The position numbers and the translations under genes were made by a program. A DNA stretch of 64,000 nt, from positions 2,790,001-2,854,000 of the forward strand of contig JAZGTN010000097.1 of the NCBI GenBank assembly GCA_037783415.1, given 5' to 3'. The notes under the pieces were generated by a model, which saw nothing but the letters and a program-made list of their open reading frames with translations, ran no database searches and had not been told where the DNA came from. Positions 1-51,272 of the stretch are shown here, piece after piece (the stretch's first letter is position 1; every line of letters starts with the position of its first letter). This DNA comes from Leptasterias polaris. Lineage: Eukaryota; Echinodermata; Asteroidea; Forcipulatida; Asteriidae.

Positions 1-156
1 TTTGTTTTTAGATGAGGTCATTTGAAATGTAACAAAGGGCAAGTAATACCAGAGCAACATTTATACCAAGTACCTTTTTTTGTTTAAAGCATTTTCAGTT
101 TTAGAGTTCTGGTTTCTTTTCTTAAAATCACCAACAATGTCTCATTTTCTTTAAAG

Positions 157-26799: not shown

Positions 26800-29700
26800 A
26801 TGGTGATGAAAGTTTTCTGGCTGCTACTCGTGGCCACATTGGCTAGGACTGCTTCAGTACAGACACAGCAGGAGGATGGTGGCGTATACGAACAGTCCTC
26901 GTGCACTGAGCGAAGGGTCCAATATTGGTCCGAGCGCTCAAGGGATGCCGTTCAACGCATCAAAGAGGTCCGGTTCGATCTCGATACAAAGATTGAAGTT
27001 CTGGGAGACTTCGCATCCACGAAAGACCTAGAGGACTATACAGGAAAGGTATGTTGAAAACACTCTCGGGCAACGATTAATGTTTGCTTTTTATAGTCTA
27101 TACGAGCCGCAGCTAATAGGTTGAAACAGATCGTCATTCAAGTATATTTCATAGTCTGCATTTTGTTTCAATTTACAACGAAATGGGTGCCTATGAATAT
27201 TACAAATTAAGGTATACTTCTATACAGGATGGTAAGGATAACAAGATTAATAATTAATAGTTTTAGTCTGAAGCTTACTGATGATGAAGTTCATACTAAG
27301 GACAAATATTCTGTAAAGTTTTTCCCTCTGAAATGAAATTGTAATACCTGCAAAAGGGGGAGGGGTTTGTGCGCTTTAAAATTCTTAAAGGAGTCGGGGG
27401 TTTTTTTTAATGAAGATTTTGATGCTAATTTTGTCAAAGTTCCAACTGGGCTGATTATAGTATCGGCGCACATGACACATTGAGTTGGTTGCAACACTTA
27501 CAAGAAGTTTAAGCACAGGTCCGTCTCCGTATTTTTATTAAACACGTTGTTTTTCCATCCTAATTATTTGCAAATCTTGGCATTTTTGGTGGGCCCGGGC
27601 CCCGTTGAAAACCATTGCGCCCCCCGCCCCTAATCGACAAATGCACAAATGAATGGTTCCTTGCACCAAAAGCCACCCCGCAGGGGTGCTCTTTATATTA
27701 TAAAAAATTTGACCTCCCAAGAAAGACATTCCTGGACATCTTCATGTCGTCCCATGGGTCTGTATAATTTGTTTCTTTCTAAGACTAGATCCTTTTACTG
27801 CACTTGTTTCCTCACTTTTCAATTATCACTTTCTGTGCATTTTGGTAGCACTTAAATGCGAATAATGTTCATCATGTCATGGCCAACTTGAACATTTATA
27901 AAATGTCGTTTTGGTCTAAGACTAAGAGCCTCGGCTGATAATTATCGAACTGTGCAACCCCCCCCCCCCCCCCCCCCCCCCCCGCCACCCAAACACACAC
28001 AAACACCCTCACTTTTACAATATGAATGTCTCTCTTAAAATACAAAACTTATATTTAAAAAAATTCTATAATATCAAAATTATAGTCGATTTATGTTCAT
28101 CGTTGAAGGAAATCCCCTCAAACATTTCACTTTTACTTCTCATCGAGGGCTGATTCAATGAAAATCCACTATACTTTTTTTTTCAAAACCATTCCCTTTG
28201 AAACCTGGCACGACAACAGTCCTACTGTACCAGTAACAGGTCACCCATTAATTAATAACCAATTAATTTGTACATTTTGTATATTCCATCTCGTATTAAC
28301 GTAAACAAACGGGAAAATGTTCAGTTGTTTGAGAAACTGCGTTCAGCCTGTTCAGCTGTGTGAATTACTCCAATGCCTTTTATCTACAAATCCCTCGGGG
28401 TCTGTACTGTAACTACAGACGGCCTTCTGTGATAACATACGGTATATATATATACATATTTTTTTTAAATACACTTTTTTATATCTGCAAACCCTATAAG
28501 AAAATTATCAAACATAACTTAACTATATACCCTCGTTCTGAATTGAATAGCTGGTTGAATCTTCGCTAGACTGCTTGAATGAAATCTTCCAGTATGGAGC
28601 ATTGATCTTCGAGTGCCCACCGGAGGAAGAGGACGATGCTACTGTACCTAAAAGTGAGTACAGAGTGGACGTTGAAAGTCTACAGATAATTAAAACCTCC
28701 TCACCTTGAATATAATATACTCTAAAAACTTTACTTTTTGTAAAGTTAAATTAATCTTACTAAAAAGGAGTAGGCCCCCTAATAGCATGTTAGAGTTAAC
28801 TTTGACAATGCTAATTTAACGTTTCCATGTCGTTAAATCTGTGTACGGAGCAGTCACTGACCGCAAAACTTAGTTTGAGCATGGTTTGAGATAGTCTTGA
28901 TTGGCGACGTTCATTTTGTTTAACGGTACGTGCGATATCGCAACACGAATTACTGTCCGCAACACGAATTACTGGAGAAGAGATATCACACGAACATCTG
29001 GATCAAACGGCTGTTTCGATCCAGATTTATAGACTTGCCCAGTCCTTCCAAGTCAGCCAGACCAAACAGTCTATCGGTGGCTAAAAAAAAAAAACAGCGT
29101 CGCCAATCAAGACTAGGTTTGAGAGTGTATTTTTTTCAAGATCACATCAGTTGGGGCGAATTTTATTCCCCGAGCACTCTGAAATTGCTCGACATTTGTT
29201 AACGTTGATGAGCGCAAAAGGGGTGCTGGGTGATTGATGTGACTTCTTATGACCTGACTTTGTTATATAATAATTGTGTCCATTTTTTGAATAATCGTCC
29301 CCTTAATTTCTGATCCTGCTTTACTAAGGTTTCAAAATAATATAGAATGTCTCCGGTCACTGACTTACCAAAATATCCTCGTGGATTCACTGTTCTGTAA
29401 TTGTCTATAACGTTAACCACTTTCTGTTATACCCCCTTCATTTACCATTGCCCTTTAGAAGCAGTCATTGTGGATCGAATCCGACAAGAGATGTTGATCA
29501 TAATGGAACATCTGCGAGACATTCTAAGAGAAGGAATTTCTGAGCAAAATCAGGCCCAAACCCAGCAGGCCCAAACCCAGCAGGCCCAAACCCAGCAGGC
29601 CCAACCCCAGGCGGACTCACCCCATGAAAAACCGTAAGTATTAGTACATTTTTCTTTGTTCAACCCAAAATTATTAAAAATGTATCCAGTCAATTTCCCT

Positions 29701-31678
29701 TCCGGTTTATTTTGATCCCCTCAAGGTGATCCCTCTGCTGCCGCTTCCCAAGTTGTATCGTAAACTTGGGTGTGATCCCTGGCTACGGCAGTTACAGATT
29801 GAATGGCTCCTGAACAAAGATATTGACAAACTAGACATAAATCTTTGTTGCATAACAAAAACGAGGTGTTCGGCATGATATTAAAATTTTGGTCGTAATA
29901 CATCCCAGCTTGAATTCATGCAAAGTTTCACCTTGATCACCAAAGTTGTTCTTTACATATAGATCTCGTAAAAAACTACCTTTATGGTAATGTAACGTGA
30001 CAAATGATGACCTCGTGAAGACGTCAGTCCATATTTTAACCATAAATGACCTTCCAAGCCTTATGCAAAACAAAATTTGATTGCAGCTTGTTTTGAAACT
30101 TATATAGCAAAAACATAAAAGGTTATATCGTAATTTATACGACCTCAACAACAGAAAAGAATCTTTTAGCCTAGATGTACTTTTTATTTGTGCAAAATAT
30201 AACAAATTCGATAAAGCCATGTACAAATAAATAAAAGCAAAGGCATGCACTACTGAGCATAATTTATAGCTTAGATTTTTATAATTGTTTGTTACAATAT
30301 GGGTCCAGGTCATGGGGTGTTCGTTTTTCCTAAAATGAAAAACGGATTAATAAATTAATTTAAAAACGCGGCTTTATATTTTTATTTTTATTTACGCTTC
30401 CAGTGAAACAAACAACCGGGAAGATGATGAAACCAAGAGAGGTGCTACAGAGTTGGATTTATGTATCGCTCGAGTAAGACAACAACATAAAGGTCAAGAC
30501 GAAGCCTTCATCCTCCAAACCATCTTGAGTCGATGTCAAAGAAAACGAGAGTTTTCACTTCCTCTAAGGTAAGCGTAAATACAACCTGTTTTTATTTTAT
30601 TTTATTTTAGTTATTAATATTATTTTTAGGTAAAAGAAATGAAAGAACCAACACTTATTATAAATTCGATCTCGGTAAAATATGTTCCTATTTGTTCTTT
30701 ATTAAAATGTAGATCATTTAAAAGAAATCGTTACATTTCTGAAGAAAGCTAGCTAGCCTGATGCCAGTGATTTATTATTCATCCCGACAATGCTAACCGA
30801 TCCAACATTATTCTAAGTTCCTTTATTGTTCTTTTGTTGATCTTTGTTATTACCAAATAATGAACAACTCTTTGACAGATTGTGTGTTGTTTCAACAAAA
30901 TTGACATCGTTATGTTTTGAAATCAAATAAGCATATATTTTTTTAATCAATCAGCGAAACACAGCAAAACCAGGAAGACGACGAAACCAAGAGAGGTGCA
31001 GAGTTGGGTTTATGTATCACTCGAGTAAGAAAACAAAATCAAGGTCAAGACGAAGGGTCTATTTTCCAAGCCATCATGGTTCAATGTCAGAGCAAACGAT
31101 GGTCACTTCCTTTAAGGTAAGCGCAAATGAAACTTTATATTATAATTGTTTTAAACATACATTATTTAAAGAAACACAACAAGTAAGGATTATCCGGGGT
31201 CCTGTTGAAAATGAAAAATTGAATGTCATTATTTTGACTGGTTGTTTTTTGAAAATAAAGACCGTTTAAAAGAAATCAAGAAAAAAAGCCTATGACCTCT
31301 TCGTGTTTAACTCCCAGTGATTTACCATTTATTCCGACATTGCTAATCAATCTGAGTCGGTACTCAGCATTTTTGTTGTTCTGTGTTTAGTTTTGGTGTC
31401 ACCAATTTATAGTTGAAAACTTTTCGACAGAAAGTGTGCTGGTTTAACAAAACTTACATTGTTATATTTTGAAACAAGTATATTTATTTGTTAATTCAAT
31501 CAGTGAAACACAGCAAAACCAGCAGGACGACGAAGCTAAGAGAGGTGCTACACAGTTGGATTTATGTATCGCTCAAGTAAGACAACAACATAAAGGTCAA
31601 GACGAAGTTTCCATCTTCCAAGCCATCATGGTTCAATGTCAGAGCAAACGAGAGATTCTTTTTGAGCCTTTCATGTGA
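26800..31678 (+). CDS. Secreted cysteine-pair repeat protein, copy 1 (three repeats)
   Basis: Function unknown; no family recognised. Exons 26800-27048, 28551-28653, 29459-29633, 30404-30568, 30955-31116 and 31504-31678 (TGA 31676-31678) join in phase to about 342 residues. The start was chosen at 26800 because MVMKVFWLLLVATLARTAS then reads as a signal peptide; an in-frame ATG at 26722 would bury it. The mature N-terminal part is charged and helical with cysteines (CTERRVQYW, LDCLNEIFQ, FECPPEEEDD). Exon 3 ends in an AQTQQ repeat. Exons 4-6 each encode one ~55-residue unit: a Gln/acidic hinge (SETQQNQ-DDE-KRGA), then LDLCIARVRQQH, QDE, and ILQTILSRCQRKRE. Each unit has two cysteines spaced C-x23-C, suggesting a disulfide-closed helical hairpin (inference). 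All internal repeat exons are phase 2-2. Probably extracellular. Confidence 0.85.
27958..27983. repeat. Poly(C) tract
   Basis: 26 consecutive C in intron 1 of repeat-protein copy 1; the unit 2 counterpart (44577-44597) has 21. The homopolymer length may not be exact. Confidence 0.8.
28892..29115. mobile_element. 224-bp MITE, TAG...CTA ends, 9-bp TSD
   Basis: Ends TAGTCTTGATTGGCGACG and CGTCGCCAATCAAGACTA (one base off at the inner edge), flanked by GGTTTGAGA at 28883-28891 and 29116-29124. It lies in an intron of repeat-protein copy 1. It is also in unit 2 (45506-45728), so the insertion is older than the duplication. Confidence 0.85.
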
Positions 31679-34138
31679 AAGAGATACAAATTGAACTGAC
31701 CTTCTAAAACTTGAAAGCTTGAAATTAACTGCAATAACAATGATACCGACGAGTCTATGTCCATCAGACACAGGAAACACGATAGTACACCTCATGCACA
31801 TGACGTGCGTTTCCGTTATTTCATCTTCATCAGTTTATCTCTAAGATGGCGAGTTGATGACGTCAAAAGGCCTATAAGGAAGGCTGCCATTTTGCCTCCG
31901 TCATGTTAGCAGTTTTTCACAATGGTTGGATTTGTGTTGCAAACTAGACATGAGACCACCAAAGAGTGTCTCAACCGTTGTGATTGGACATGCAGGCTTA
32001 TACTTAAAATAGTTTGAGATAAGATAATATATCAGTTGGTGTTCTTGAATTTGTTGTTTAATCCGCCCTCAACTTTCCATAAAAAATGAACGGGAAAAGT
32101 GACAATTTTTTAATGGAATTGAAGAGCGAGAGTAACCGATTTAAAAAAAAAATAATTATTAACTAAAAACAAAATAGTGTTAGCCTGCAAGTCCGTTCAC
32201 ATGTTATAGCACTTGTGGTGGTTTCAGGTACTTAAAAAGCTACAACCATTGGAAAAACTGCTTGTACGTGATGGCTGTAGAAAAGTTTCATTGAGTGTGT
32301 TTCCTGTCATCGGTCAGTCCTGAAAAAATTACCGAAACGGTTAGATGAAGAATTGTCTTGGACTATATTGTGTTTACATTAACAAGTATTAATTATATAT
32401 TTATCAAAACAATATTTATTAAGAAAACAAAATCGTGATTCTATTGATTAAATGTTTACATATAAAGTTATAGCGTATGAACAATTTATATTGTGAGTAG
32501 TGAACACTTGAACTTTTGGTTAAAAAAATTAATATTCTGAGTACAGCTTAATTAAAACTCTTTGTTTATCAACTCTGCATGCCAGGCCCAAGTTAAATTT
32601 ACCTCGTGCTTCTAAATTGTTCGACTTCTCTACATGATGACAATTTATAAGCATAGTATAATTAGTAGGCCTAGGCCTAAAACTATCATTTCATAATGGG
32701 GTTTAACATTATCTTCAGTCGTTCATTGGTGTTGAACTTTCAGTGAGTGTTAACTTTTACCAGACAATTTATGAAACATTTGAAGTGGCTCAATTTTTAG
32801 ACCTAAAACAGCAATTTGGGGGGTTTTCAGACAATTAAACCGCTGGTGGTCATACTCACTGTAAAAAAAATCGTCTGTTTTTGACAATAAATGCGTACGC
32901 CGGGTGTGAACGCGGTTTTATCTTTGTGCAGCAAATTGGTGTTCGTGGTGACTTTTGTATTTCTTGTCAATCAATAATTAGGCCTAAGCAATTTAACAAA
33001 CTTTATTAAATTAGGCCTATACTAGGCCTACAGGCCTTTGCGCATTGATTTTGCAAAAAAAGTCGCGGATTCAAGCGTCTATTTGAAAAGGCCCTATTCA
33101 TTCGAAAATCACTGAAATTCAAGTTGTTCATCGCTGTCATCACAAGGCATATGGGGGTAATGTTTGTGGTAGTTTGCCTGCTTTAACTGAAAGGTTTAAA
33201 AAGATATCCAAGTTGTCTTCTATAACAGCACTAGGCCTACATGTTCTCATGCTTCTTATATGCCTAGACCTACTGAGTCTTCAGGCAAACGTTCATAACT
33301 TGGGCCAACCTATGAGTGGTGGCCTTCTCGGCCTTAGCTGAAGGGATATATTATATTTGGATATGGATTTAACTGTAAACAGAAATGAGTTGAACAAATA
33401 CAATTGGCCAAACAGAAATATTACAACTTTATTTTTTGGAAACGATGTCCAACTCTTATTATTCCATGAGCCCGAACCTTTGTTTTGGTGGTCATTAGGC
33501 CTATAGGCACATAAGACCCACCCCACCCCGACCCCAAATTATATTCATAGAACACAATTGTGCAATTGGTATGGATAGCAAACAATGAGCGGCATGGTGC
33601 ACCGAAACTTCATCACTTGCTCTAGGCATGCACAAAAAAAAACACACCATGATTTGCGTTTTATTTGGCCTGGAAAATCTGCATAGGCCGACACTAAAAT
33701 TTGATAACTTTTTAACTACACACGGTTGCGCAGGGCGGACCTGTTGTGTCCACTGATCTCTAAGTAGACTTGATTCAAGTCCCTTTCTCGTGCGAGGTTC
33801 CTAACGTAACGCGCCAGCATGCAGCCACAGAATACCAGTGCGCCCTCACCGACAAAATGTAGTTATTTATGCGGTGTCCCGCGCGCGGAACAGGTTGGGG
33901 AATGCAGAGCGCAAAATAATAGTTTTCTGACGATGAGGCAAGGAAGGGCCTTGCACGGGATTGGGACTTGAGTCAAGTCTAATCTCTAAGTAGATCAGTG
34001 GATGTGTCAATGAAAACTGAGGTTATGCACAACAACTTTTTTTAGTCTGGTGCAAGTTGTGTTCTTTATTTTCTGCTATCAACTCATATGGGATAGTGGG
34101 ATCCAGTTTCAGTAAAAAGGCAGCGCTAGTTTCCAAAA
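31679..34138. other. Intergenic region between repeat-protein copy 1 and MUS81 fragment
   Basis: Holds the 3' UTR of the repeat-protein gene and the promoter side of the MUS81 fragment. AATAAA occurs at about 32886. Several AGGCCTA-type palindromic motifs occur around 32670 and 33010. No gene recognised besides the MITE at 33765-33981. Confidence 0.5.
33765..33981. mobile_element. 217-bp MITE, unit 1 only, 9-bp TSD
   Basis: Ends TAGACTTGATTCAAGTCCC and GGGACTTGAGTCAAGTCTA, flanked by ATCTCTAAG (33756-33764, 33982-33990). Unit 2 shows the empty site at 53343-53370 with a single ATCTCTAAG. It lies upstream of MUS81 exon 1 of the orphan fragment. Confidence 0.92.
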
Positions 34139-34942
34139 ATGAGTTTAGAGCCAGCTCCGAAAAAGAGGAAAAAGAAAGTAGACCGTTGCCCCAATCCACT
34201 TTTTGTGAAATGGTTGACAGAATGGCGGGACGAAGCTGCAGAACAAGGAAAGAAAACTCAGTACGCTTACGGAAAGGTAAGTATCGGCGGCCCTGCCAAA
34301 TGTCTTGTTTCAAATACTTGCCCAGTTCCCGGACAATTGGGATCCGTAGGCAGGCGCGGCAGGCGCAGCATGTAAGACTAAAGCCTAGGCCATAGCATGG
34401 GAATGTTTTTTTAAAAAGGGTTGACGCTAGCCGGGTAGCCCCATGATTGTTAATGATAAATAGATAGTGCCAATCAAGAAAACATATCCGGATCCGAATG
34501 ACAGTAGACACGTTTTCACTCATTCATTGTTACCAAAAGCAACATCTCATTTGAGTAAATAACTAAATTAAATTAGGATTAGATTAATAGAATGATTACT
34601 AATCGTGCTAATTTAATAACTAATTTAAGACCCAGTAACCATGGTAACTTGGGCGCTGTACCTGGTTTTTTCTCTCGGAATTTTGACATCTGCGATCGTA
34701 CTAGCGCCCCAGGAAATTATCCTAGGTACGATTGATTGTTGTAGACCTCAATTTGCTATGATTTTGCAAACACCAAGCCACAAAAAATGCCTCAGAATGA
34801 CAAAAATAGCCAACAAAATGGCTTACTGGCTTCTTATATGTCTAAGATGCAACATCAGGCATTTAATGCTCCAAATTGACGATTTTTTAAGTCAACAATC
34901 GGAGAAACCATACATGACGATCCAAATCTCGCTTGTATCGGC

Positions 34943-35040
34943 GGGTGCCCTGCCTCAACCGCATAGTCGTCACGGTTGAGGCAGGGCACCTGTCTAACCT
35001 GTCAAATTTTAGACGGGTACCCTGCCTCAACCGTGACGAT
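34943..35040. repeat. Three-arm inverted repeat in MUS81 intron 1 (unit 1)
   Basis: GGGTGCCCTGCCTCAACCG (34943-34961) pairs with CGGTTGAGGCAGGGCACC (34973-34990), which can alternatively pair with GGGTACCCTGCCTCAACCG (35015-35033). The unit 2 version (54980-55071) is better preserved, with 22-bp arms including GACGGGT. Confidence 0.75.
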
Positions 35041-35761
35041 AATATTTTGTAAAATTAATGCGAAAAAGTAGCAGTCGAATACTGGAATTTTTCCCCAACA
35101 AATTTTAGTAACGAAATTTGTCACTATAAATTAATACTGCTAGATTGTTTGGCACAGTTTTCCTTTAAGTCGGTGCCTGATGAACTGAACATATGCAGAA
35201 TTTATTAGCCCAACTTGTTGGGCAGTAAATGGCCCTCAATTTTTGGGGGGAAATTTCTGCATCTGGCCACCACTTTTTAAAGGGATTTATTTGATTTTGT
35301 AATGTTGGACTTTATTTCCCTTTTTTAAATTTTCCTCTCAAGGAATCGGTATCTGAAATACTAAATTTTGACCTTAAAAAGGGAAAATTCAAGTGCACAA
35401 TTCATCGCGTGGAACTCTCGCACACTCATGCCCAATGAACTAAAATGGAGTGTAGCGAGTAGCGTTGTCAAGACCACCATTGACCCCAAAATGGCTTTGT
35501 TTTTGCATGATTTTGACACTTTGTAAATGTATTGGTTCAAAATGCCTGTGCCTCTCTGTCAACCCTTCTGGACAGGTGAGGATATAATTTGACCTCAATT
35601 AAGGGCGTTTGGTGGCTGGAAGCGGAATTTTAATCATTATTTTTAACATCGGTGTAGAGCTAGACCCAGCTGGTAGACTGTTTTGCACAAGTTTTTCTGT
35701 CTTAATTTAAGTCACAGTCACTGATGCGGTTATTTCACTTGCAAGATAATGTTCTTTCTCC

Positions 35762-35885
35762 TAGACCCAGTAACTGGGGCGTTGTACTCCTCTTTTTGAA
35801 ATTGTGACCTCAACAATCATACCAGTACAACAATGGAAGTCAAAATTTAAAAAAGAGAAGTACAGCGCCCCAGTTACTGGGTCTA
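35762..35885. mobile_element. 124-bp MITE, TAG...CTA ends, near-perfect 9-bp TSD
   Basis: Ends TAGACCCAGTAACTGGGGCG and, inverted, TAGACCCAGTAACTGGGGCG. Flanks are TCTTTCTCC and TCTTTATCC (8 of 9 match). It lies in MUS81 intron 1 and is present in both units (55816-55939). A degenerate relative begins near 34627 (AGACCCAGTAACCATGG). Confidence 0.8.
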
Positions 35886-37299
35886 TCTTTATCCCTTATA
35901 CTATTGATTTAAGAATATTTTCAACAAAATTTAAGCATTATGTAAAAAATAAAACAAAATAAATGCCTCACTGTTTTGCTTGATTATTTATTTAACTAAA
36001 ACTTATTTTTCTTGTAAACCATTAGGCGCTGAGTTCTCTCAAAAAGTATCCCATGCCCCTGACATCTGGAAAGGAAGCAACAATTTTAGATAATTTTGGG
36101 GAAAAGATCTGTAAGATGTTAGATCACAAGTTGGAAAAACATGTTGAAGAAAATGGTGAGTAAGGCTGTCCTCTCTCTTGTTATTGTTTGGTAAAAGCAT
36201 TATTTACAATAAAATTATTTGGGGGGAAGGCTGGTTCAAGGTTATTGTGCTTTTAAGGAGCAAGGTTATACATAAAACCTAATTGTGAAACTCCATTGTC
36301 AAACTTTTCTGTATATGATATAATGGAAAGAGTTGTATGCATGTAAGTGTGTCACCGATACTAGTTGGAGTCTATGAATAATGGGGACATGTAAACAGCG
36401 TTCCGTTATAATAAGTTTATTCTAAAAAATGTAGAGAAGAGAGCAGGGTACATTATGATGTTACTTCTCTAGCAGTGAATGTGAAAGTGGGGGCCTGGGA
36501 GGGCGCCAGTTGGAACAGGTTTAGTTTGCACATAAATAAAAGGCAATGGGCGTATGGATATAAATGCAATGAGTAAAAGACCCTAGCATTTGTTAAAAAA
36601 AATGACAGGAAATAGTGTATTTAAAGGAACAATTAGTCAACTTTGTGAGGGATATATTTATAACAGTCACAGCATCCTAATACCAAAAGCACATTTTAAG
36701 TTTAAGTTATCGCGATTGGCAATTATTTTACGCAGGAGAATCGTCCTCGTTGGAAGCTGACCATGAACCATTAGTATCGCCACTGACTACACAAGCTCAT
36801 TCCACATCCTCTGTACCATATGAAGACATTCTGGCCGTTCCTCCACCCCAAGATGAGATTAACGGAGTTGACCAGCAAGTATGTAGATCTCGATAAATTA
36901 CCTGCAACCAAAGTTTGAGTGACATTTATTTGTTACAATTTTTTGGAATGTGTTGAAAACAAATTTATTTTACAAAACCAAATTTCTTTTTGTTACAGTG
37001 TATAGTTTTTTATCAAACTATGTGCTCCACTGTTTAACTATACATTTTTAAAGATGTAGTGAAGAGAACCAGTAGGACATTTAACATAAGCCTGACGTTA
37101 AAGTTCATATTCAACTGTGCCATTGATTATAGAGAGTTGGTTCTTCAAATGTCTAATACTATTTACCACTTGGCGACAGTATTAAAAACTCTTGATCATG
37201 CCATTCCTTGGTATTATTATATTTGAATGATTGAAATAATTGTTTTGTATTTTTGAGACTATATTTTTCACAATGAAACCCTGACTGAACAAAGTAAAG

Positions 37300-37677
37300 T
37301 TTAAAAAAAGAACATTAGTTATCTAGCGGTAACATTTCGACAAAAGCGGAGAGTTTTCTCGAAAAGACAAAGCATTCGCCAAGCCTGGAATCTCCAATGG
37401 TTGAATCTAAACCGTTAACAAAGGGCGCCCTCACTTAGTGAAATCTTCTTGGGCGACTTTGTTAGGGGGTGACTTTGTTAGGGGGCGACTTTGTTGGTGG
37501 GCGACTCTGTCAGGGGGCGACTTTGTGAGGGGCGACTTTGACAGGGGGCGACTTTGTAAGTGAGGGGCGACTTTGTAGTGGGCGACTTTGCTGGGGGGCG
37601 ACTTTGTAGTGGGCGACTTTGCTGGGGGGCGACTTTGTAGTGGGCGACTTTGCTGGGGGGCGAGTTGACTGGTATTC
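37300..37677. mobile_element. Truncated right arm of the AAAGTCGCCC array element
   Basis: Same sequence as 20683-21061, including the array of GGGCGACTTTG units (37452-37665) and the end GCGAGTTGACTGGT. The left arm and its target duplication are missing because the duplication breakpoint cuts the element. One G shorter than unit 1. Confidence 0.9.
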
Positions 37678-38078
37678 AAAGCAATAATGCCATGTATGTT
37701 CTTAGTTCATCTCCCCATCTTCTGCTTTGTCCCTCTCCTTTTTGTTCGGTTTCTTGGAGTTCCAATCCGTTTGGTTGTTTTGCATGCCTACCTGTTGTCA
37801 TTTGCTATAGATAGGTAACCTGCCCATCTCCACTTCTTTGATTTAATGGCATTAATATCCCGCACTCTTGATTTCTTTCTATTCCTCATTTTGTCACCCT
37901 TTCCTTTGTTACTCTTATCATTATTCTTTCAATAGCCCTCTCTATACACTAAGCTTTTTCTCAAGATTTGTTTGCAGTGGGAGGCGTTGGATTGGAATTA
38001 AGTTACCTTTTTCAAAAAATCCTCAATGGTTCGTTTCTTTTGGAGATGTTTTAAAAAAAATCCTGAATATTTATTTAA

Positions 38079-39448
38079 AGGGTGTGTACAACATTGGTAA
38101 TTGCCAAAGACCTGTATCCAAACTTGATGTGACCCAACATATACATGAAATAACAAACCTGTGAAAGTTTAAGCTAAATCGGTCTTCGGAGTCTTCGAAA
38201 ACTGTGAAAAAAAACCTTATGTGTTTTAACTTCTTTTCAAACATCGGAATATATCCTGCAGGATAAAGACTATTATTTTACTGATTTCCTAAAAATTATG
38301 GCATTTCAAGCAAAACTATTTCAAGGGAAGTTTTCCACCATGACCATCTTTATACAGTCGTTTGACCAGTTCTGGATCACTTTTTGAATTCACGTTGTTT
38401 TTTATTGCAATCTCTCTGACATCTTGAACGAAAAAGTTTATCAGTTTACCTAAACATGTCATAAAACTCACCAAGTATCCACTGACAAAAAAAGATTAGT
38501 ACTTTTGAAGAAGCTTTGAGAAAAGTATCGTTTGACCAGTTCAGGATCAGTTGATTCTATTCTGGATCAGTAGCATGCCCTTTATTGCAAACCCATACTC
38601 CCATTCATAAAACTGTCTCTCGAGGACACGAAACTTCAGAAGTGTGTTGGCATGGACTTGGACTTCCTTTCTTTAGTGAATGTCATGCAAGTGTCTTCAA
38701 CAGCAGCGCAAAAACTCAGCCAAAAACAGAAAACAACAGCAAAGGCGAATGAAAAGGTGAAGCGCACCTAAAGCAACATTGACCCCTCCAAGTTTCATTT
38801 TCTCACAAAAAAAACAAAACAATCTACAAGAATTTGTTGAAGTAATGTATCTCAAAAGCAATAAATAAACTTTCTACTGCAGCAGTATGATTTTACCTCA
38901 CTTAGTAAGTTAGTGTGACACCATTTGACACAATGAGATGTTGAGTGATCCCGAACTGGTCAAGGGTACAATCCCCCCCCCCCTCCCCAAAGATGATTTT
39001 TGTAATTTCGTCTCCTCAAAAAAACAAGGCGACTGCTCAGTATTTACGTGAAGTATATTTTACACATTCTTAGCATTTTACATAAATGTTTTTCGCCCTG
39101 GCGTTCAAATTCTAATGGTGAGAAGTTTTAACAGCGTTTTTCAACCAACATTTTTTAACAAAATAATTATCAATATCGCAGACAAACTTCAGGAAAATTA
39201 CCGTAATTTATTTGCCGATGATGTTTTTCACCTTATTTTGGGTTTGTTGGTTTAATGGGTGTTATTCTTCACATGTATCAACAGAAATTAGTAATGTGAG
39301 AAGTAATATAATTATTTGGTTATTGCAAAGTTGAAGTGATCCCGAACTGGTCAATGATCCCGAACTGGTCAAATGACTGTATCATGTAAGTTATGTGCAA
39401 ATCTGTGAACATTTATATTTTCATTCTTACCAATGTTGTACACACCCT
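38079..39448. mobile_element. Unit 2 copy of the nested TTAA / TA elements
   Basis: Same nested structure as 21463-22832; the inner TA-flanked element is 38355-39379. Near-identical to unit 1, so both insertions predate the duplication. Confidence 0.75.
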
Positions 39449-39460
39449 TTAAACAATTAC

Positions 39461-41260
39461 CTTTTTCATATTGATACACAGAATATGCAGCTTCTTCATA
39501 ATCACTCTCAGTCGCAGACTTGCCGCCCGACGGCCCTCCTGTGTCAGACCTAAGCCTACTCTTATTGTCCTCGTCGTTAATCTCCGGGGTACAGGGAGCA
39601 CTATTCTCCCCGTCGGCATCTCTCCGATCACTCTTTATGTCATCTGCCCCTCCCGTTCCCCGTCCTTGTAAACCGTCTCTCCCTCCATCCCCGGCACCTT
39701 GACTCTCTCCGTTAACCGGTCGTTCTACTGCCTCCTCTTCTGACGACGAGCTACTACTGGAATCCAAGTCCGATCGATACCGAGCACCAGTGATAGGGAT
39801 GTGGATGGTGGTGACCTTAGGAGTGGATGAAGAGGACGAGAATGGGATGACCATGTGGGAAGGGGTACTGTGGTTGTGACTCACAAGCGGACTCGTGGAG
39901 GTATGCGAATGCCTGGCGGCTGACGGTATGGCATCTTGAAAAAAAACAAGCATTAACTGGTTATTGCAGGTATAGGCAAAGTTTGATGTGAAATAAATGC
40001 ATTATATTAAAACATATAAAGCATGTTGGTTTTTTTGGAGATAAAACAGCAACTCATGTAGGCCTACACAAACAAACACTCAAACACCCACAAACAAACA
40101 AAACAAGCGACCAAATTATGTCTATGCGTTTCACCTTTGTGTTCAAATCAAACCATGCATCTTTGTGTGAGGTTATGTTTGAAAACAAGCCTATGTATTT
40201 CATTTCAGGTTGTTCTGCTTTTTGTTAAAGTTTAGCCTACGGGTTGAAAGGTGATGTTGGTTCGTTTTGGATATTCAAAAATGTCTTTATCGAACTAAAC
40301 ATGAAATATTCATTATTATGCAGACAGAATGAGATATCTTAGTCACCTGGTTTGTGAGTTTGTTCTTTTGTTTTCTTCAGTGGGTTCCACAGTTGGTACT
40401 CTGGAGGCTTGCTCCTGCACTTGAAGTAAACTAGTACCACAGTTATCGTTACAAAGAAGATGACAATGACGACAAGAACGGCTATTCCTCCACCAGACAC
40501 TATAAAGGCAAAGAGTGGATACACAGTAACGAATCAATAAAGCCACAGTGGGGGAAATGACACTACACCTGCATCGTTTTGCTACAACGTTTTCCTAAAC
40601 CTTCTTCCATCAAATACAGTTTATTCCACATACAACAATGGTATTTTTAAAGGCACCCAAACAGCAATGTTTCAACTTGTATGACTTAATGTTACCATGG
40701 TAGGCCTAGTCCCTCCCACCTCCAGTATAGAACACCAAAAGCAAACGAAATCACAGTATACCATGGGTCTGTTGGTAATGAATAAAATGGAAATGTAGAA
40801 GGCGATGGGTTTATGTGGGTGTCATGTTGATCTTCTGTTGATCTTTGATTTGTCTTGTTCAATAGCCAGAATAAAGTAAAAGGTCAATTCATTTAATAAC
40901 TTCACCCCAAAAACAGTTTGACGTTTCGACCCAAGCAGAGTCTTTCTGAAAGGTTAACATTTAATGACAACACAGCACACATAAACAGGTATACAAGGTG
41001 TCACAAAAGCAGTCAAGAGGAAAGAAGTGAAAAGAAAAGGGGAGAAGCAGAAAGCACACCGAAAGAGCAAGGGGTGAACAATGAAGAAGGGGCAAGGAGG
41101 GTAGAGGGAAGGGGGCTGGTTTAACAACGAGAGATTGGAAACACAAAAAACAAAATCAAAGGTGGGAAGAGGGAGAACACAATAAGTTAGTGAATTAGAA
41201 ATACTACAATGAGGGATACCTAATAATTGGACACAATATAGACACATACTCACAAGCCAT
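39461..41260 (-). pseudogene. Orphan 5' exons of the synaptotagmin-like gene (unit 2)
   Basis: Exons 41260-41254 (ATG GCT T), 40499-40347 (membrane anchor) and 39934-39461 (Ser/acidic linker) have intact splice sites and are near-identical to unit 1. There are no C2 exons downstream on this strand before unit 1 begins again. All three junctions are phase 1, so splicing from 39461 into the unit 1 anchor exon (23883) or linker exon (23318) would stay in frame and give a protein with a repeated anchor or linker (inference). Otherwise a C2-less fragment. Confidence 0.75.
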
Positions 41261-43417
41261 GTTTATTCTAGTTTATTACCGCGCACGCTCCAGTCACAGT
41301 TGTCTAGTTGTCATCATTTCATCTCAAATCAAATCGTATAATCTGTGCACGATGATCCGAAGTAAATTCGGCGAAATGTTCGGTTCAGGAAAATCACAAA
41401 ATGTACTCCTTCATAGAGTATGGTTTAAGGCTGGGCTCGCACAAGTGTAAACCAACTCGTGAAAAATCAAGTAAAACCCCATGTAGCCGTAGGGATAGAG
41501 CTTGCCAAGCGACCGTGAAACACCGACCGACATCGAAGGGTGCGCCCACTATAGGTATATCAGTTACCTCGTACCCAACGAGCATCGTGGGTCGTAAACA
41601 AACGAAGAACAAGCAGTAATCAACAGAGATAGTTGTCTGGATCGAGGAACACAAATTATCACTGAGTAAATACAAGTACTATTGACCGACGTCGGTAAAC
41701 ACTTCGCTGTGTTTGGTGTCTATCTACGGGCTGATAACCCGAGTATCTCGTGTTGATTGACCAACCAACTTTATAGGGCACTTAAATAATTTCTTTTTCG
41801 TTTTGTCAACTTATTGATTTACTTATTTTTAACCATTTTATCAAATCTGTTTGATTAAGGTTTTACATTTTTGCGTTATGCAGTTTTCCCCCCTAAAAGG
41901 ATATCTTTGATATAGCTGTTGCCCAAAACGTTAACGTTTTTAATTAGGTTAATTATGATCCGACATGAACAACTTTGAAAACTCCTTTCTCACCCATGCA
42001 AAGTTTTATGCAAATTTTATGCAAAGTTTATGCAAATTTCATGGTCAACTTTTGAGGCTCAGATTCCAGGCCCAGTTAATTTTATAAAAGAGGGTTGACC
42101 CCATCGCTTGCATCCATCATTATGATAGATTAAAATTTGCATAACAGTTTTCTCAAGTTTGTGCCCCCTTCTCAATAATTGTTTGTAATGTATTTAAAAA
42201 AAGATTTAGCCAAAACATGCGGAAAGAAACGAAAATGAAACACCAAAATTGATGGAGGATGCTTTGTGTTCCACAACAATAATTCAAATGTGTAAAATAT
42301 AACTACTATAGGCCCTAATGATTTAGGTGAACAATTGGTTTCTAAATAATTTTGATGGGACGCCATAGTGAGAAAGGAATAGTTATCGAAATCATAAATA
42401 AACAAAATAAACAACACTGTTTGCTTTTATTCCAACAGTTATGCCTAAGTATGTATATCACGACTATAACAAGAATCGCAGGTATGAGATGACTACCTCC
42501 GGTATTGCAATCACCGACTTTAAAGTGACATCTGGCATATTTATAAACCTACGTTAATATTCACGTAAACAATTTATTTACACTTTTAACTTGTTTTATT
42601 AAATACCTTCCCAAACAAAATAGCGACGTCAATAGTTACAAAATTCGCACATTTTGTGTCAAGAAGCTTTATCATGTTATAAAGTGGTTCTGCAGTCGCT
42701 AAACCAACATCTGCTCGAAGAGTGAAAACTGTGTCATGCACAGCTGTATTGTTGCCAAGTATGGCTGCCTGTCAACAAGGTTTCTCCTTGACAAAATGCT
42801 TCTGTACCTTTTTTGAAATAAGGCCCCCAAGAGGCATTTGTTTATATGGGTTACATTTTGTATTAAAAAAACAAAACCTTTGTGATAATGCCTTTGTGAA
42901 ATTTCAGCCCGTGGCTCATGGACTATAGGGACCATTGTCTACAAGCCCTGCTTCTTAATGGATCCCTCCGCAGTATCACATTTGCTCTTTTCTTATATCT
43001 ATAATTTTATTTACATGATATTAAGTAACTTTTTGTGATTTACTTTCTGTGGTTTAAAACTGTGGAATAAATCAACCTGAGACCTGAACCTGAAGCTTGG
43101 TACCCAAACCCAATTCCTTGCTTTCCAGCTCCAAGGAATGGTAGGAATTTGCCGAAGCTCATTGGTTAAGAATTTGTGAAAGAATGTCAATTCCAAAGAT
43201 CTTAAATTCCTGAATGAAATGTTCAGTCGAAGGGAACCGTCCCCCAAAACACCTGTGTCGATCTTTGAATAACAAAATCTCACAAAAATCACCTAATTTT
43301 GAATAAAAACCAAGGTAACTTAAGTAGTTATTCACTACAGTGGTTACCTCGCAGAGTGCTGCAAGTAACCAACGTGTCTCACCACCGCTGCACAAACCGC
43401 ACTGCGTTCCCGGCATC

Positions 43418-46400
43418 ATGGTGATGAAAGTTTTCTGGCTGCTACTCGTGGCCACATTGGCTAGGACTGCTTCAGTACAGACACAGCAGGAGGATGGTGG
43501 CGTATACGAACAGTCCTCGTGCACTGAGCGAAGGGTCCAATATTGGTCCGAGCGCTCAAGGGATGCCGTTCAACGCATCAAAGAGGTCCGGTTCGATCTC
43601 GATACAAAGATTGAAGTTCTGGGAGACTTCGCATCCACGAAAGACCTAGAGGACTATACAGGAAAGGTATGTTGAAAACACTCTCGGGCAACGATTAATG
43701 TTTGCTTTTTATAGTCTATACGAGCCGCAGCTAATAGGTTGAAACAGATCGTCATTCAAGTATATTTCATAGTCTGCATTTTGTTTCAATTTACAACGAA
43801 ATGGGTGCCTATGAATATTACAAATTAAGGTATACTTCTATACAGGATGGTAAGGATAACAAGATTAATAATTAATAGTTTTAGTCTGAAGCTTACTGAT
43901 GATGAAGTTCATACTATAAGGACAAATATTCTGTAAAGTTTTTCCCTCTGAAATGAAATTGTAATACCTGCAAAAGGGGGAGGGGTTTGTGCGCTTTAAA
44001 ATTCTTAAAGGAGTCGGGTTTTTTTTTTAATGAAGATTTTGATGCTAATTTTGTCAAAGTTCCAACTGGGCTGATTATAGTATCGGCGCACATGACACAT
44101 TGAGTTGGTTGCAACACTTACAAGAAGTTTAAGCACAGGTCCGTCTCCGTATTTTTATTAAACACGTTGTTTTTCCATCCTAATTATTTGCAAATCTTGG
44201 CATTTTTGGTGGGCCCGGGCCCCGTTGAAAACCATTGCGCCCCCCGCCCCTATCGACAAATGCACAAATGAATGGTTGCTTGCACCAAAAGCCACCCCGC
44301 AGGGGTGCTCTTTATATTATATAAAATTTGACCTCCCAAGAAAGACATTCCTGGACATCTTCATGTCGTCCCATGGGTCTGTATAATTTGTTTCTTTCTA
44401 AGACTAGATCCTTTTACTGCACTTGTTTCCTCACTTTTCAATTATCACTTTCTGTGCATTTTGGTAGCACTTAAATGCGAATAATGTTCATCATGTCATG
44501 GCCAACTTGAACATTTATAAAATGTCGTTTTGCTCTAAGACTAAGAGCCTCAGCTGATAATTATCGAACTGTGCAACCCCCCCCCCCCCCCCCCCCCGCC
44601 ACCCAAACGCACACAAACGCCCTCACTTTTACAATATGAATGTCTCTCTTAAAATACAAAACTTATATTTAAAAAAATTCTATAATATCAAAATTATAGT
44701 CGATTTATGTTCATCGTTGAAGGAAATCCCCTCAAACATTTCACTTTTACTTCTCATCGAGGGCTGATTCAATGAAAATCCACTATATTTTTTTTCAAAA
44801 CCATTCCCTTTTGAAACCTGGCACGACAACAGTCCTACTGTACCAGTAACAGGTCACCCATTAATTAATAACCAATTAATTTGTACTTTTTGTATATTCC
44901 ATCTCGTATTAACGTAAACAAACGGGAAAATGTTCAGTTGTTTGAGAAACTGCGTTCAGCCTGTTCAGCTGTGTGAATTACTCCAATGCCTTTATCTACA
45001 AATCCCTCGGGGTCTGTACTGTAACTACAGACAGCCTTCTGTGATAACATACGGTATATATATATATACATATTTTTTTTAAATACACTTTTTTATATCT
45101 GCAAACCCTATAAGAAAATTATCAAACGTAACTTAACTATATACCCTCGTTCTGAATTGAATAGCTGGTTGAATCTTCGCTAGACTGCTTGAATGAAATC
45201 TTCCAGTATGGAGCATTGATCTTCGAGTGCCTACCGGAGGAAGAGGACGATGCTACTGTACCTAAAAGTGAGTACAGAGTGGACGTTGAAAGTCTACAGA
45301 TAATTAAAACCTCCTCACCTTGAATATAATATACTCTAAAAACTTTACTTTTTGTAAAGTTAAATTAATCTTACTAAAAAGGAGTAGGCCCCCTAATAGC
45401 ATGTTAGAGTTAACTTTGACAATGCTAATTTAACGTTTCCATGTCGTTAAATCTGTGTACGGAGCAGTCACTGACCGCAAAACTTAGTTTGAGCATGGTT
45501 TGAGATAGTCTTGATTGGCGACGTTCATTTTGTTTAACGGTACGTGCGATATCGCAACACGAATTACTGTCCGCAACACGAATTACTAGAGAAGAGATAT
45601 CACACGAACATCTGGATCAAACGGCTGTTTCGATCCAGATTTATAGACTTGCCCAGTCCTTCCGAGTCAGCCAGACCAAACAGTCTATCGGTGGCTATAA
45701 AAAAAAACAGCGTCGCCAATCAAGACTAGGTTTGAGAGTGTATTTTTTTCAAGATCACATCAGTTGGGGCGAATTTTATTCCCCGAGCACTCTGAAATTG
45801 CTCGACATTTGTTAACGTTGATGAGCGCAAAAGGGGTGCTGGGTGATTGATGTGACTTCTTATGACCTGACTTTGTTATATAATAATTGTGTCAATTTTT
45901 TGAATAATCGTCCCCTTAATTTCTGATCCTGCTTTACTAAGGTTTCAAAATAATATAGAATGTCTCCGGTCAATGACTTACCAAAATATCCTCGTGGATT
46001 CACTGTTCTGTAATTGTCTATAACGTTAACCACTTTCTGTAATGCCCCCTTCATTTACCATTGCCCTTTAGAAGCAGTCATTGTGGATCGAATCCGACAA
46101 GAGATGTTGATCATAATGGAACATCTGCGAGACATTCTAAGAGAAGGAATTTCTGAGCAAAATCAGGCCCAAACCCAGCAGGCCCAAACCCAGCAGGCCC
46201 AACCCCAGGCGGACTCACCCCATGAAAAACCGTAAGTATTAGTACATTTTTCTTTGTTCAACCCAAAATTATTAAAAATGTATCCAGTCAATTTCCCTTC
46301 CGGTTTATTTTGATCCCCTTAAGGTGATCCCTCTGCTGCCGCTTCCCACTGAGTTGTATCGTAAACTTGGGTGTGATCCCTGGCTACGGCAGTTACAGAT

Positions 46401-49400
46401 TGAATGGCTCCTGAACAAAGATATTGACAAACTAGACATAAATCTTTGTTGCATAACAAAAACGAGGTGTTCGGCATGATATTAAAATTTTGGTCGTAAT
46501 ACATCCCAGCTTGAATTCATGCAAGCTTGGTTTCAGCTTGACCAAGCATTTATTTCTCTGCATATAAAGATCTTGTAAAACTGCACATTGAAGGTGAAGT
46601 CACGTTACACTTAATGACGTCATCGTGATGTAATCGTGATGTAAACTAAATTTGTGGATGTAACACATCCCAACTTGAATACGTGCAAAGTTTCACCTTG
46701 ATCACCAAAGTTGTTCTTTACATATAGATCTCGTAAAAAACTACCTTTATGGTAATGTAACGTGACAAATGATGACCTCGTGAAGACGTCAGTCCATATT
46801 TTAACCATAAATGACCTTCCAAGCCTTATGCAAAACAAAATTTGATTGCAGCTTGTTTTGAAACTTATATAGCAAAAACATAAAAGGTTATATCGTAATT
46901 TATACGACCTCAACAACAGAAAAGAATCTTTTAGCCTAGATGTACTTTTTATTTGTGCAAAATATAACAAATTCGATAAAGCCATGTACAAATAAATAAA
47001 AGCAAAGGCATGCACTACTGAGCATAATTTATAGCTTGGATTTTTCTAATTGTTTGTTACAATATGGGTCCAGGTCATGGGGCGTTCGTTTTTCCTAAAA
47101 TGAAAAACAGATTAATAAATTAATTTAAAAACGCGGCTTTATATTTTTATTATTTTTCTTTACGCTTCCAGTGAAACAAACAACCAGGAAGATGATGAAA
47201 CCAAGAGAGGTGCTACAGAGTTGGATTTATGTATCGCTCGAGTAAGACAACAACATCAAGATCAGGACGAAACCTCCATCCTCCAAACCATCTTGAGTCG
47301 ATGTCAAAGAAAACGAGAGTTTTCACTTCCTCTAAGGTAAGCGTAAATACAACCTGTTTTTATTTTATTTTATTTTAGTTATTAATATTATTTTTAGGTA
47401 AAAGAAATGAAAGAACCAACACTTATTATAAATTCGATCTCGGTAAAATATGTTCCTATTTGTTCTTTATTAAAATGTAGATCATTTAAAAGAAATCGTT
47501 ACATTTCTGAAGAAAGCTAGCTAGCCTGATGCCAGTGATTTATTATTCATCCCGACAATGCTAACCGATCCAACATCAATTATTCTAAGTTCCTTTATTG
47601 TTCTTTTGTTGATCTTTGTTATTACCAAATAATGAACAACTCTTTGACAGATTGTGTGTTGTTTCAACAAAATTGACATCGTTATGTTTTGAAATCAAAT
47701 AAGCATATATTTGTTTAATCAATCAGCGAAACACAGCAAAACCAGGAAGACGACGAAACCAAGAGAGGTGCAGAGTTGGGTTTATGTATCACTCGAGTAA
47801 GAAAACAAAATCAAGGTCAAGACGAAGGGTCTATATTCCAAGCCATCATGGTTCAATGTCAGAGCAAACGATGGTCACTTCCTTTAAGGTAAGCGCAAAT
47901 GAAACTTTATATTATAATTGTTTTAAACATACATTATTTAAAGAAACACAACAAGTAAGGATTATCCGGGGTCCTGTTGAAAATGAAAAATTGAATGTCA
48001 TTATTTTGACTGGTTGTTTTTTGAAAATAAAGACCGTTTAAAAGAAATCAAGAAAAAAAGCCTATGACCTCTTCGTGTTTAACTCCCAGTGATTTACCAT
48101 TTATTCCGACATTGCTAATCAATCTGAGTCGGTACTCAGCATTTTTGTTGTTCTGTGTTTAGTTTTGGTGTCACCAATTTATAGTTGAAAACTTTTCGAC
48201 AGAAAGTGTGCTGGTTTAACAAAACTTACATTGTTATATTTTGAAACCAAGTATATTTATTTGTTAATTCAATCAGTGAAACACAGCAAAACCAGCAGGA
48301 CGACGAAGCTAAGAGAGGTGCTACACAGTTGGATTTATGTATCGCTCAAGTAAGACAACAACATAAAGGTCAAGACGAAGTTTCCATCTTCCAAGCCATC
48401 ATGGTTCAATGTCAGAGCAAACGGGAGATCACCAAAGATCCTCCCAGTGAAGATGATGAAACCAAAATAGGTGCAACAGAGTTGGATTTATGTATCGCTC
48501 AAGTAAGACAACAACATAAAGGTCAAGACGAAGTTTCCATCTTCCAAGCCATCATGGTTCAATGTCAGAGCAAACGGGAGATCACCAAAGATCCTCCCAG
48601 TGAAGATGATGAAACCAAGAGAGGTGCTACAGAGTTGGATTTATGTATCGCTCGAGTAAGACAACAACATCAAGATCAGGACGAAACCTCCATCCTCCAA
48701 ACCATCTTGAGTCGATGTCAAAGAAAACGAGAGTTTTCACTTCCTATAAGGTAAGCGTAAATACAACCTGTTTTTATTTTATTTTATTTTAGTTATTAAT
48801 ATTATTTTTAGGTAAAAGAAATGAAAGAACCAACACTTATTATAAATTCGATCTCGGTAAAATATGTTCCTATTTGTTCTTTATTAAAATGTAGATCATT
48901 TAAAAGAAATCGTTACATTTCTGAAGAAAGCTGCTAGCCTGATGCCAGTGATTTATTATTCATCCCGACAATGCTAACCGATCCAACATCAATTATTCTA
49001 AGTTCCTTTATTGTTCTTTTGTTGATCTTTGTTATTACCAAATAATGAACAACTCTTTGACAGATTGTGTGTTGTTTCAACAAAATTGACATCGTTATGT
49101 TTTGAAATCAAATAAGCATATATTTGTTTAATCAATCAGCGAAACACAGCAAAACCAGGAAGACGACGAAACCAAGAGAGGTGCAGAGTTGGGTTTATGT
49201 ATCACTCGAGTAAGAAAACAAAATCAAGGTCAAGACGAAGGGTCTATATTCCAAGCCATCATGGTTCAATGTCAGAGCAAACGATGGTCACTTCCTTTAA
49301 GGTAAGCGCAAATGAAACTTTATATTATAATTGTTTTAAACATACATTATTTAAAGAAACACAACAAGTAAGGATTATCCGGGGTCCTGTTGAAAATGAA

Positions 49401-51272
49401 AAATTGAATGTCATTATTTTGACTGGTTGTTTTTTGAAAATAAAGACCGTTTAAAAGAAATCAAGAAAAAAAGCCTATGACCTCTTCGTGTTTAACTCCC
49501 AGTGATTTACCATTTATTCCGACATTGCTAATCAATCCGAGTCGGTACTCAGCATTTTTGTTGTTCTGTGTTTAGTTTTGGTGTCACCAATTTATAGTTG
49601 AAAACTTTTCGACAGAAAGTGTGCTGGTTTAACAAAACTTACATTGTTATATTTTGAAACCAAGTATATTTATTTGTTAATTCAATCAGTGAAACACAGC
49701 AAAACCAGCAGGACGACGAAGCTAAGAGAGGTGCTACACAGTTGGATTTATGTATCGCTCAAGTAAGACAACAACATAAAGGTCAAGACGAAGTTTCCAT
49801 CTTCCAAGCCATCATGGTTCAATGTCAGAGCAAACGGGAGATCACCAAAGATCCTCCCAGTGAAGATGATGAAACCAAGAGAGGTGCTACAGAGTTGGAT
49901 TTATGTATCGCTCGAGTAAGACAACAACATCAAGATCAGGACGAAACCTCCATCCTCCAAACCATCTTGAGTCGATGTCAAAGAAAACGAGAGTTTTCAC
50001 TTCCTCTAAGGTAAGCGTAAATACAACCTGTTTTTATTTTATTTTATTTTAGTTATTAATATTATTTTTAGGTAAAAGAAATGAAAGAACCAACACTTAT
50101 TATAAATTCGATCTCGGTAAAATATGTTCCTATTTGTTCTTTATTAAAATGTAGATCATTTAAAAGAAATCGTTACATTTCTGAAGAAAGCTGCTAGCCT
50201 GATGCCAGTGATTTATTATTCATCCCGACAATGCTAACCGATCCAACATCAATTATTCTAAGTTCCTTTATTGTTCTTTTGTTGATCTTTGTTATTACCA
50301 AATAATGAACAACTCTTTGACAGATTGTGTGTTGTTTCAACAAAATTGACATCGTTATGTTTTGAAATCAAATAAGCATATATTTGTTTAATCAATCAGC
50401 GAAACACAGCAAAACCAGGAAGAAGACGAAACCAAGAGAGGTGCAGAGTTGGGTTTATGTATCACTCGAGTAAGAAAACAAAATCAAGGTCAAGACGAAG
50501 GGTCTATATTCCAAGCCATCATGGTTCAATGTCAGAGCAAACGATGGTCACTTCCTTTAAGGTAAGCGCAAATGAAACTTTATATTATAATTGTTTTAAA
50601 CATACATTGTTTAAAGAAACGACAACAAGTAAGGATTATCCGGGGTCCTGTTGAAAATGAAAAATTGAATGTCATTATTTTGACTGGTTGTTTTTTGAAA
50701 ATAAAGACCGTTTAAAAGAAATCAAGAAAAAAGCCTATGACCTCTTCGTGTTTAACTCCCAGTGATTTACCATTTATTCCGACATTACTAATCAATCCGA
50801 GTCGGTACTCGGCATTTTTGTTCTGTGTTTAGTTTTGGTGTCACCAATTTATAGTTGAAAACTTTTCGACAGAAAGTGTGCTGGTTAACAAAACTTACAT
50901 TGTTATATTTTGAAACAAGTATATTTATTTGTTAATATAATCAGTGAAACACAGCAAAACCAGCAGGACGACGAAGCTAAGAGAGGTGCTACACAGTTGG
51001 ATTTATGTATCGCTCAAGTAAGACAACAACATAAAGGTCAAGACGAAGTTTCCATCTTCCAAGCCATCATGGTTCAATGTCAGAGCAAACGGGAGATCAC
51101 CAAAGATCCTCCTAGTGAAGATGATGAAACCAAAATAGGTGCAACAGAGTTGGATTTATGTATCGCTCAAGTAAGACAACAACATAAAGGTCAAGACGAA
51201 GTTTCCATCTTCCAAGCCATCATGGTTCAATGTCAGAGCAAACGAGAGATTCTTTTTGAGCCTTTCATGTGA
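43418..51272 (+). CDS. Secreted cysteine-pair repeat protein, copy 2 (eleven repeats)
   Basis: Exons 43418-43666, 45165-45267, 46072-46231, 47172-47336, 47727-47888, 48277-48750, 49140-49301, 49690-50010, 50400-50561 and 50945-51272 (TGA 51270-51272) join in phase to about 761 residues. Signal peptide MVMKVFWLLLVATLARTAS and N-terminal domain as in copy 1, with one AQTQQ unit fewer and a Pro to Leu change in exon 2. Repeats per exon from exon 4 on: 1,1,3,1,2,1,2. Exons 48277, 49690 and 50945 hold repeats fused by the linker KREITKDPPSEDDETK instead of an intron. Short single-repeat exons (47727, 49140, 50400) encode the variant with CITRVRKQNQGQDEG and KRWSLPLR. All internal exons are phase 2-2. 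Function unknown; likely extracellular, with two cysteines per repeat (C-x23-C). The near-identity of repeats shows very recent amplification. Confidence 0.85.
45506..45728. mobile_element. Unit 2 copy of the GGTTTGAGA-flanked MITE
   Basis: Same as 28892-29115 with flanks GGTTTGAGA at 45497-45505 and 45729-45737; a few substitutions and one base shorter. Confidence 0.85.
47172..51272. repeat. Exon-intron tandem array within repeat-protein copy 2
   Basis: A block made of a repeat exon, its intron, the single-repeat exon (47727 type), another intron and a fused exon is present in tandem. Equivalent positions 47784, 49197 and 50457 give periods of 1413 and 1260 bp; the 153-bp difference is one repeat inside the fused exon. 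Introns are almost identical between blocks. Unit 1 has a single block. Confidence 0.9.

Follow-up and report, generated by a model that had tools for sequence, protein, structure and literature searches.

How one genome has come to hold two adjacent copies of a repeat-protein gene, one with 3 repeat units and the other with 11, and what the encoded proteins are for, is the question raised by a stretch of 64,000 nucleotides from the starfish Leptasterias polaris (GenBank assembly GCA_037783415.1, contig JAZGTN010000097.1, positions 2,790,001 to 2,854,000 of the forward strand). This stretch is called the window in the following, and all coordinates are counted from its first letter. As judged from the sequence, the two genes, termed A (26800-31678) and B (43418-51272), are very likely precursor genes of the sperm-attracting peptide asterosap, and their difference in unit number has probably arisen by loss through recombination.

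Two adjacent genes with three and eleven units

Gene models with GT donors and AG acceptors, whose translations run without internal stops, have been obtained for both copies: gene A comprises 6 exons encoding 342 amino acids (aa) with 3 repeat units, and gene B 10 exons encoding 761 aa with 11 units. A preliminary description had claimed an adjacent pair with 3 versus 11 repeats carried on phase 2-2 exons, and these two clean models bear it out, the latter point for the internal repeat exons, which are in phase 2 at both ends in A and B, so that gain or loss of a block leaves the reading frame intact. The layout of one exon per repeat has not been recovered, as 3 of the 7 repeat exons of gene B carry 3, 2 and 2 units. 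In both genes, exons 1-3 code for an N-terminal domain, which is preceded by what, by eye, resembles a signal peptide and followed by a short tandem tract rich in Gln; all later exons are repeat exons. The units belong to the types a, b and c, with c' as a variant of c, and are arranged as a-b-c in gene A and as a, b, (c c' a), b, (c a), b, (c c') in gene B, where brackets mark units fused in one exon. The exons are as follows.

26800-27048, plus strand: gene A exon 1, signal-peptide-like start (by eye) and N-terminal domain
28551-28653, plus strand: gene A exon 2, N-terminal domain
29459-29633, plus strand: gene A exon 3, end of the N-terminal domain and Gln-rich 15-bp tandem repeat, 4 copies
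30404-30568, plus strand: gene A repeat exon, type a unit
30955-31116, plus strand: gene A repeat exon, type b unit
31504-31678, plus strand: gene A terminal repeat exon, type c unit and stop
43418-43666, plus strand: gene B exon 1
45165-45267, plus strand: gene B exon 2
46072-46231, plus strand: gene B exon 3, Gln-rich repeat, 3 copies
47172-47336, plus strand: gene B unit 1, type a
47727-47888, plus strand: gene B unit 2, type b
48277-48750, plus strand: gene B units 3-5 in a single exon, c, c' (Lys-Ile replacing Lys-Arg in front) and a
49140-49301, plus strand: gene B unit 6, type b
49690-50010, plus strand: gene B units 7-8 in a single exon, c and a
50400-50561, plus strand: gene B unit 9, type b
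50945-51272, plus strand: gene B units 10-11 in a single terminal exon, c and c', and stop

The 15-bp Gln-coding repeat of exon 3 lies at 29551-29610 in gene A and at 46164-46208 in gene B.

The units fit the sperm attractant asterosap

Extracts of the literature describe asterosap as a glutamine-rich peptide of 34 residues, in which a disulfide ring of 25 residues is essential for activity and whose receptor is a guanylyl cyclase of the sperm flagellum (PMC3528131); it is the chemoattractant of Asterias amurensis, with a receptor affinity of 57 pM (PMC8431315), and takes part in the acrosome reaction (PMC9265791). A comparison of the first 400 residues of the gene B protein with proteins of ∼419-1332 aa (best 7,995 candidates scored) has returned one relative from that same species, the uncharacterized protein P0121 (E 0.0, 59% identity, 77% of the query), which has 1045 aa and 15 units. 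P0121 shares with the gene pair the N-terminal domain (78% identity, 115/147), two linker types, a C-terminal end that is one residue off and probably the chromosome, and differs in its 15 more uniform units, in its 14 junctions, of which 12 belong, counting variants, to the ITKDPPSE type and 2 to the exon-junction type, and in a Gln-rich tract that is much longer than in A or B. Five precomputed Pfam accessions are listed for it.

The cysteine pair encloses exactly 25 residues (inclusive) in 14/14 window units, the disulfide itself being predicted, and likewise in 15/15 units of A. amurensis, and the residues between the unit borders number 34 in 10 of the 14 and in all 15, respectively. Dibasic borders, a feature taken from the A. 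amurensis relative, are present as well: Lys-Arg (KR) stands on both flanks of 12/14 window units and of 13/15 A. amurensis units, where one exception has TR in front and the other KQ behind. Every KR pair of the three proteins (6 in gene A, 20 in gene B and 28 in A. amurensis) coincides with a unit border, the spacers that separate the units being acidic, and the KR count over the three unit types together is 6 compared with a mean of 0.75 in 20,000 shuffles. The peptides are rich in Gln (18.8% in gene A, 19.9% in gene B and 21.8% in A. amurensis), and ring identity between window and A. amurensis units amounts to 69-85%. Because cysteine spacing, length, Lys-Arg borders and the A. amurensis relative together match the description of asterosap, we consider both genes very likely to be its precursor genes, and the units, fitting that description, are predicted to be cut into free peptides. 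The window peptides share with the asterosaps of A. amurensis the cysteines enclosing 25 residues, the Gln-richness, the length of 33-34 residues and the starfish origin, and differ in coming from another species and by several residues.

The proposal of an undescribed family is thereby ruled out for the peptide. Of the roles that had been guessed, immunity, adhesion or gamete interaction, the last is very likely right, as the units fit an egg-jelly sperm peptide, and selection for valency appears unlikely, because units bracketed by Lys-Arg pairs are predicted to be released singly. The characterization of the repeats as nearly identical holds within unit types and fails between them, where ring identity falls to 58%. 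Between types, dN has been calculated as 0.14-0.21 and dS as 0.31-0.49 (six comparisons of short sequences), a pattern as for constrained coding sequence. In the assembly of 629.7 Mb and 334 contigs, a search with the unit has given at least 14 matches, all in the window (15/15 candidates scored). Fold prediction of the three-unit exon, with 10 window rows, has resulted in two helices per unit at a mean pLDDT of 57.9 and a pTM of 0.29, too weak to use, and in a unit tree the window units cluster on a near-zero branch, so that the tree has not been relied on.

Nishigaki et al., as cited in PMC3528131, are said to have described the asterosaps in 1996 as sperm-activating peptides of Asterias amurensis, and a cDNA paper of 1999 reportedly contained asterosap precursors with about ten units. 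In the open literature, a phrase search has found no paper on an asterosap precursor, a whole-word search for asterosap or asterosaps 12 papers but none with the term in title or abstract, and a search of literature text for pieces of the sequence no paper. In view of the 1999 paper and of searches that covered the open literature, we limit the novelty to how the genes are built, to their pairing and to the unstable unit number with its probable loss event. Resact and speract of sea urchins are also egg-derived sperm-activating peptides from multicopy precursors, the peptides being much shorter than asterosap. For resact, an extract of the literature names a sperm guanylyl cyclase as the reader (PMC8431315). 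VERL and other egg-coat proteins are fertilization proteins with expanded repeats as well, but their repeats are domains of one egg-coat protein, as the extract of a review on repeat expansion in fertilization proteins has it (PMC8830517), whereas the window units are predicted to be freed as peptides; the same review gave no match for sperm-activating or chemoattract.

A probable loss of a 2,821-bp stretch

The preliminary description had implied a change from 3 to 11 units, a direction that is probably reversed. The architectures of the two genes differ by a single stretch.

48430-51250, no strand assigned: 2,821-bp stretch whose absence turns gene B into the architecture of gene A (exchange point approximate)

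When this stretch is taken out of gene B, the last 170 positions differ from gene A at 5, all in exon a; outside it, the two proteins also differ by one unit of the Gln tract and one residue of exon 2. The blocks at its ends (48316-48429 and 51137-51250) are alike at 111/114 sites. Along the 175 bases of the terminal exon of gene A, 147 bases match the start of the terminal exon of gene B and 125 match its end, and the b-c intron of gene A differs from that of the first block of gene B by no substitution and one gap column, as against 6 substitutions and 6 gap columns for the last block. Junctions of the ITKDPPSE type, counted from the linkers, number four in gene B and none in gene A. Because removal of the 2,821 bp from B yields the architecture of A, and in view of the introns, the linkers and the 15-unit relative of A. 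amurensis, the short gene A has probably been derived from a long, B-like array by one loss through unequal recombination.

Introns within a type have been found about as alike as the exons: 9 of the 12 comparisons show 0-1 substitutions over 382-389 sites, and the remaining 3, all of which involve the last b-c intron, show 5-6; the likeness within types is therefore attributed to recent exchange and not to constraint. As the blocks of gene B are so alike, introns included, they appear to be recent too, which speaks for the opposite course, in which repeated unequal exchange expanded gene B from 3 units to 11: 4 of the 6 intron comparisons within B show 0-1 substitutions, as expected of recent gains, and the other 2, those with the last b-c intron, show 5-6. 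We consider this direction unlikely, if with a real chance of being right, since one 2,821-bp loss turns B into the architecture of A while the reverse needs several steps, and since P0121, the relative in A. amurensis, carries 15 units with linkers of the gene B type. It is also possible that recent gain in B was followed by loss in A. In either case turnover of the array is rapid, for which exchange among repeats is explanation enough, with no need of selection, for variability included.

Several points weigh against the assignment to asterosap and against the loss. Function, processing and expression we infer from the sequence by itself. The type-b units (4/14) have 33 residues between their borders instead of 34, and in 2 of the 11 gene B units the residues in front are Lys-Ile and not Lys-Arg, which leaves these units one site short. 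A match to the published asterosap sequence is putative, through unit 6 of A. amurensis, to which that sequence is probably identical. A search with the gene A protein has given no match at E up to 1 among 2,619 candidates of 188-598 aa, an upper limit that would leave out the 1045-aa P0121. The polarity, contraction, is probable on the basis of one outgroup protein. The title of Nakachi et al. (2008), as it stands in the reference list of PMC2927915, further states conservation of both peptide and receptor between closely related starfish, which argues against fast evolution of the peptide; unit number, more than the peptide, may thus be what changes.

Positive selection on the peptide has been tried as an explanation for the differences in unit a, where A and B are separated by 4 non-synonymous and 1 synonymous changes in 46 codons (5 to 1 in the whole exon). 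It has been rejected because 11 of the 14 differences in 29930-31700 fall in one tract of 236 bp (30273-30508) that includes intron, for which a conversion tract or an older allele is an equally good explanation, and because dN is below dS between types.

A tandem segmental duplication

Both genes sit within a tandem segmental duplication, the segment of which holds more than this gene. Its units have been located by self-BLAST, with the breakpoints read in the sequence.

20679-37296, no strand assigned: duplicated segment, unit 1 (left copy)
37296-57353, no strand assigned: duplicated segment, unit 2 (right copy)

The two copies, of 16.6 kb and 20.1 kb, differ at 94 of 16,332 aligned sites (unit 2 shortened for the alignment, 114 bp left in twice), and the differences are uneven, with 10 in 6,499 sites of the left part and 84 in 9,833 of the right. 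Such low and uneven divergence would also be possible for alleles, that is, for two haplotypes of one gene that the assembler had joined in tandem, with 3 and 11 as allelic unit numbers, and a search of the assembly with a 1-kb piece of the segment has found, among the best 40 of 1,948 candidates, only two full copies, both here. We regard this as distinctly improbable, given that the window is without N, that the tandem junction is clean, with AAAG common to the breakpoints as in a real duplication, and that the sequence runs unbroken from the left flank through units 1 and 2 into the right flank.

The segment contains other repeats as well. At ∼24293-24607 an interspersed repeat has been observed, with at least 38 other places in the genome at 75-80% identity (best 40 of 1,948 candidates). 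Unit 2 alone has a near-perfect palindrome at 53737-54396 (664-column self-match, 96.4%), which ends in TAGCCCCAT and ATGGGGCTA, is flanked on both sides by the 9-bp repeat GTAAGACTA, and has its empty site near 34372 in unit 1. Because one of its arms has at least 84 matches in the genome (best 40 of 661 candidates scored), the palindrome probably belongs to a mobile foldback family. A minisatellite of the GGGCGACTTTGT type is present in both duplicated units, ∼154 bp in from the left end (20833-21047 and 37450-37663), and recurs inverted at 19513-19740, ∼0.9 kb left of unit 1. On the minus strand, at 39369-40533 and by offset at ∼22750-23920, frames of a possible gene, with membrane-helix-like and Ser-rich acidic stretches, are present, two fragments of which have given no Pfam match above the cut-off.

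Neighbouring genes

Two further features have been recognized left of the duplication.

1-9517, plus strand: flanking hnRNPUL1 gene
13439-13807, minus strand: flanking C2-domain frame

With its exon pieces joined, hnRNPUL1 is closest to A. amurensis (91% over 300 residues), the other 119 proteins among the best 120 of 995, starfish Acanthaster planci included, being 60-65% identical; seven exon pieces trimmed by eye are identical to A. amurensis at 289/306 residues. By this likeness the genome is evidently that of a starfish near Asterias, probably of another species than A. amurensis. The matches also serve as a control, showing that starfish are represented in the protein collection. P0121 and the hnRNPUL1 gene of A. 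amurensis each lie on a contig of 38,009,675 bp, and because the two contigs agree in length, the genes probably share one chromosome and the neighbourhood is probably conserved. A 22-bp minisatellite of ∼45 copies, at 59208-60206, lies 1.9 kb beyond the right end of the duplication. An Rfam scan of the window has given zero matches.

Proposed function and meaning

The proteins of genes A and B would be secreted in the ovary and cleaved by a prohormone convertase at Lys-Arg, releasing peptides of 33-34 residues with one predicted disulfide each, up to 11 per protein from gene B and 3 from gene A. Once in the egg jelly, the freed peptides would spread by diffusion and be bound by their receptor, the flagellar guanylyl cyclase of sperm, whereupon changes in cGMP, pH and Ca2+ would make sperm turn and help to bring about the acrosome reaction. 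With 11 versus 3 peptides per protein, the genes would differ in yield and isoform mix; the two gene B units without a Lys-Arg in front would keep their front spacer or be cut elsewhere.

Neuropeptide and hormone precursors typically carry multiple peptide copies set off by dibasic sites and acidic spacers, and the proteins might accordingly serve the nervous system and not eggs. This is very unlikely, as cysteine spacing and length fit asterosap; in a paper on A. rubens neuropeptide precursors, moreover, no match for asterosap, sperm or KRG has been found, which is weak evidence (PMC4772807). That the repeats instead remain in one long polyvalent secreted protein for adhesion or immunity would agree with the secreted-type start, the repeats and the recent duplication, and is scarcely credible beside Lys-Arg pairs that all lie at unit borders, acidic spacers between the units, the asterosap cysteine spacing of each unit, and a gene A protein for which no Pfam family passes its curated cut-off (the best reach 13.5 bits for a cut-off of 22 and 13.2 bits for one of 33.9) and solved structures give no match below E 0.066.

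As likely asterosap precursor genes, A and B supply the genomic layout for a well-studied attractant, of which peptide, receptor and signal chain are known in A. amurensis, and the unit matches of the assembly, at least 14, all lie within this one recombination-prone gene pair. The 2,821-bp loss would lower the ligand yield per protein almost four-fold. Tentatively, the attractant signal may be tuned by recombination, with whole peptides added to and dropped from the array at such a pace that one genome holds genes with 3 and with 11 units. If this is true, individuals would differ in attractant yield and isoform mix, which would amount to a heritable dial on sperm attraction and on the risk of polyspermy. 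The gene architecture makes such variation in dose and isoforms between females, and its effect on fertilization, testable.

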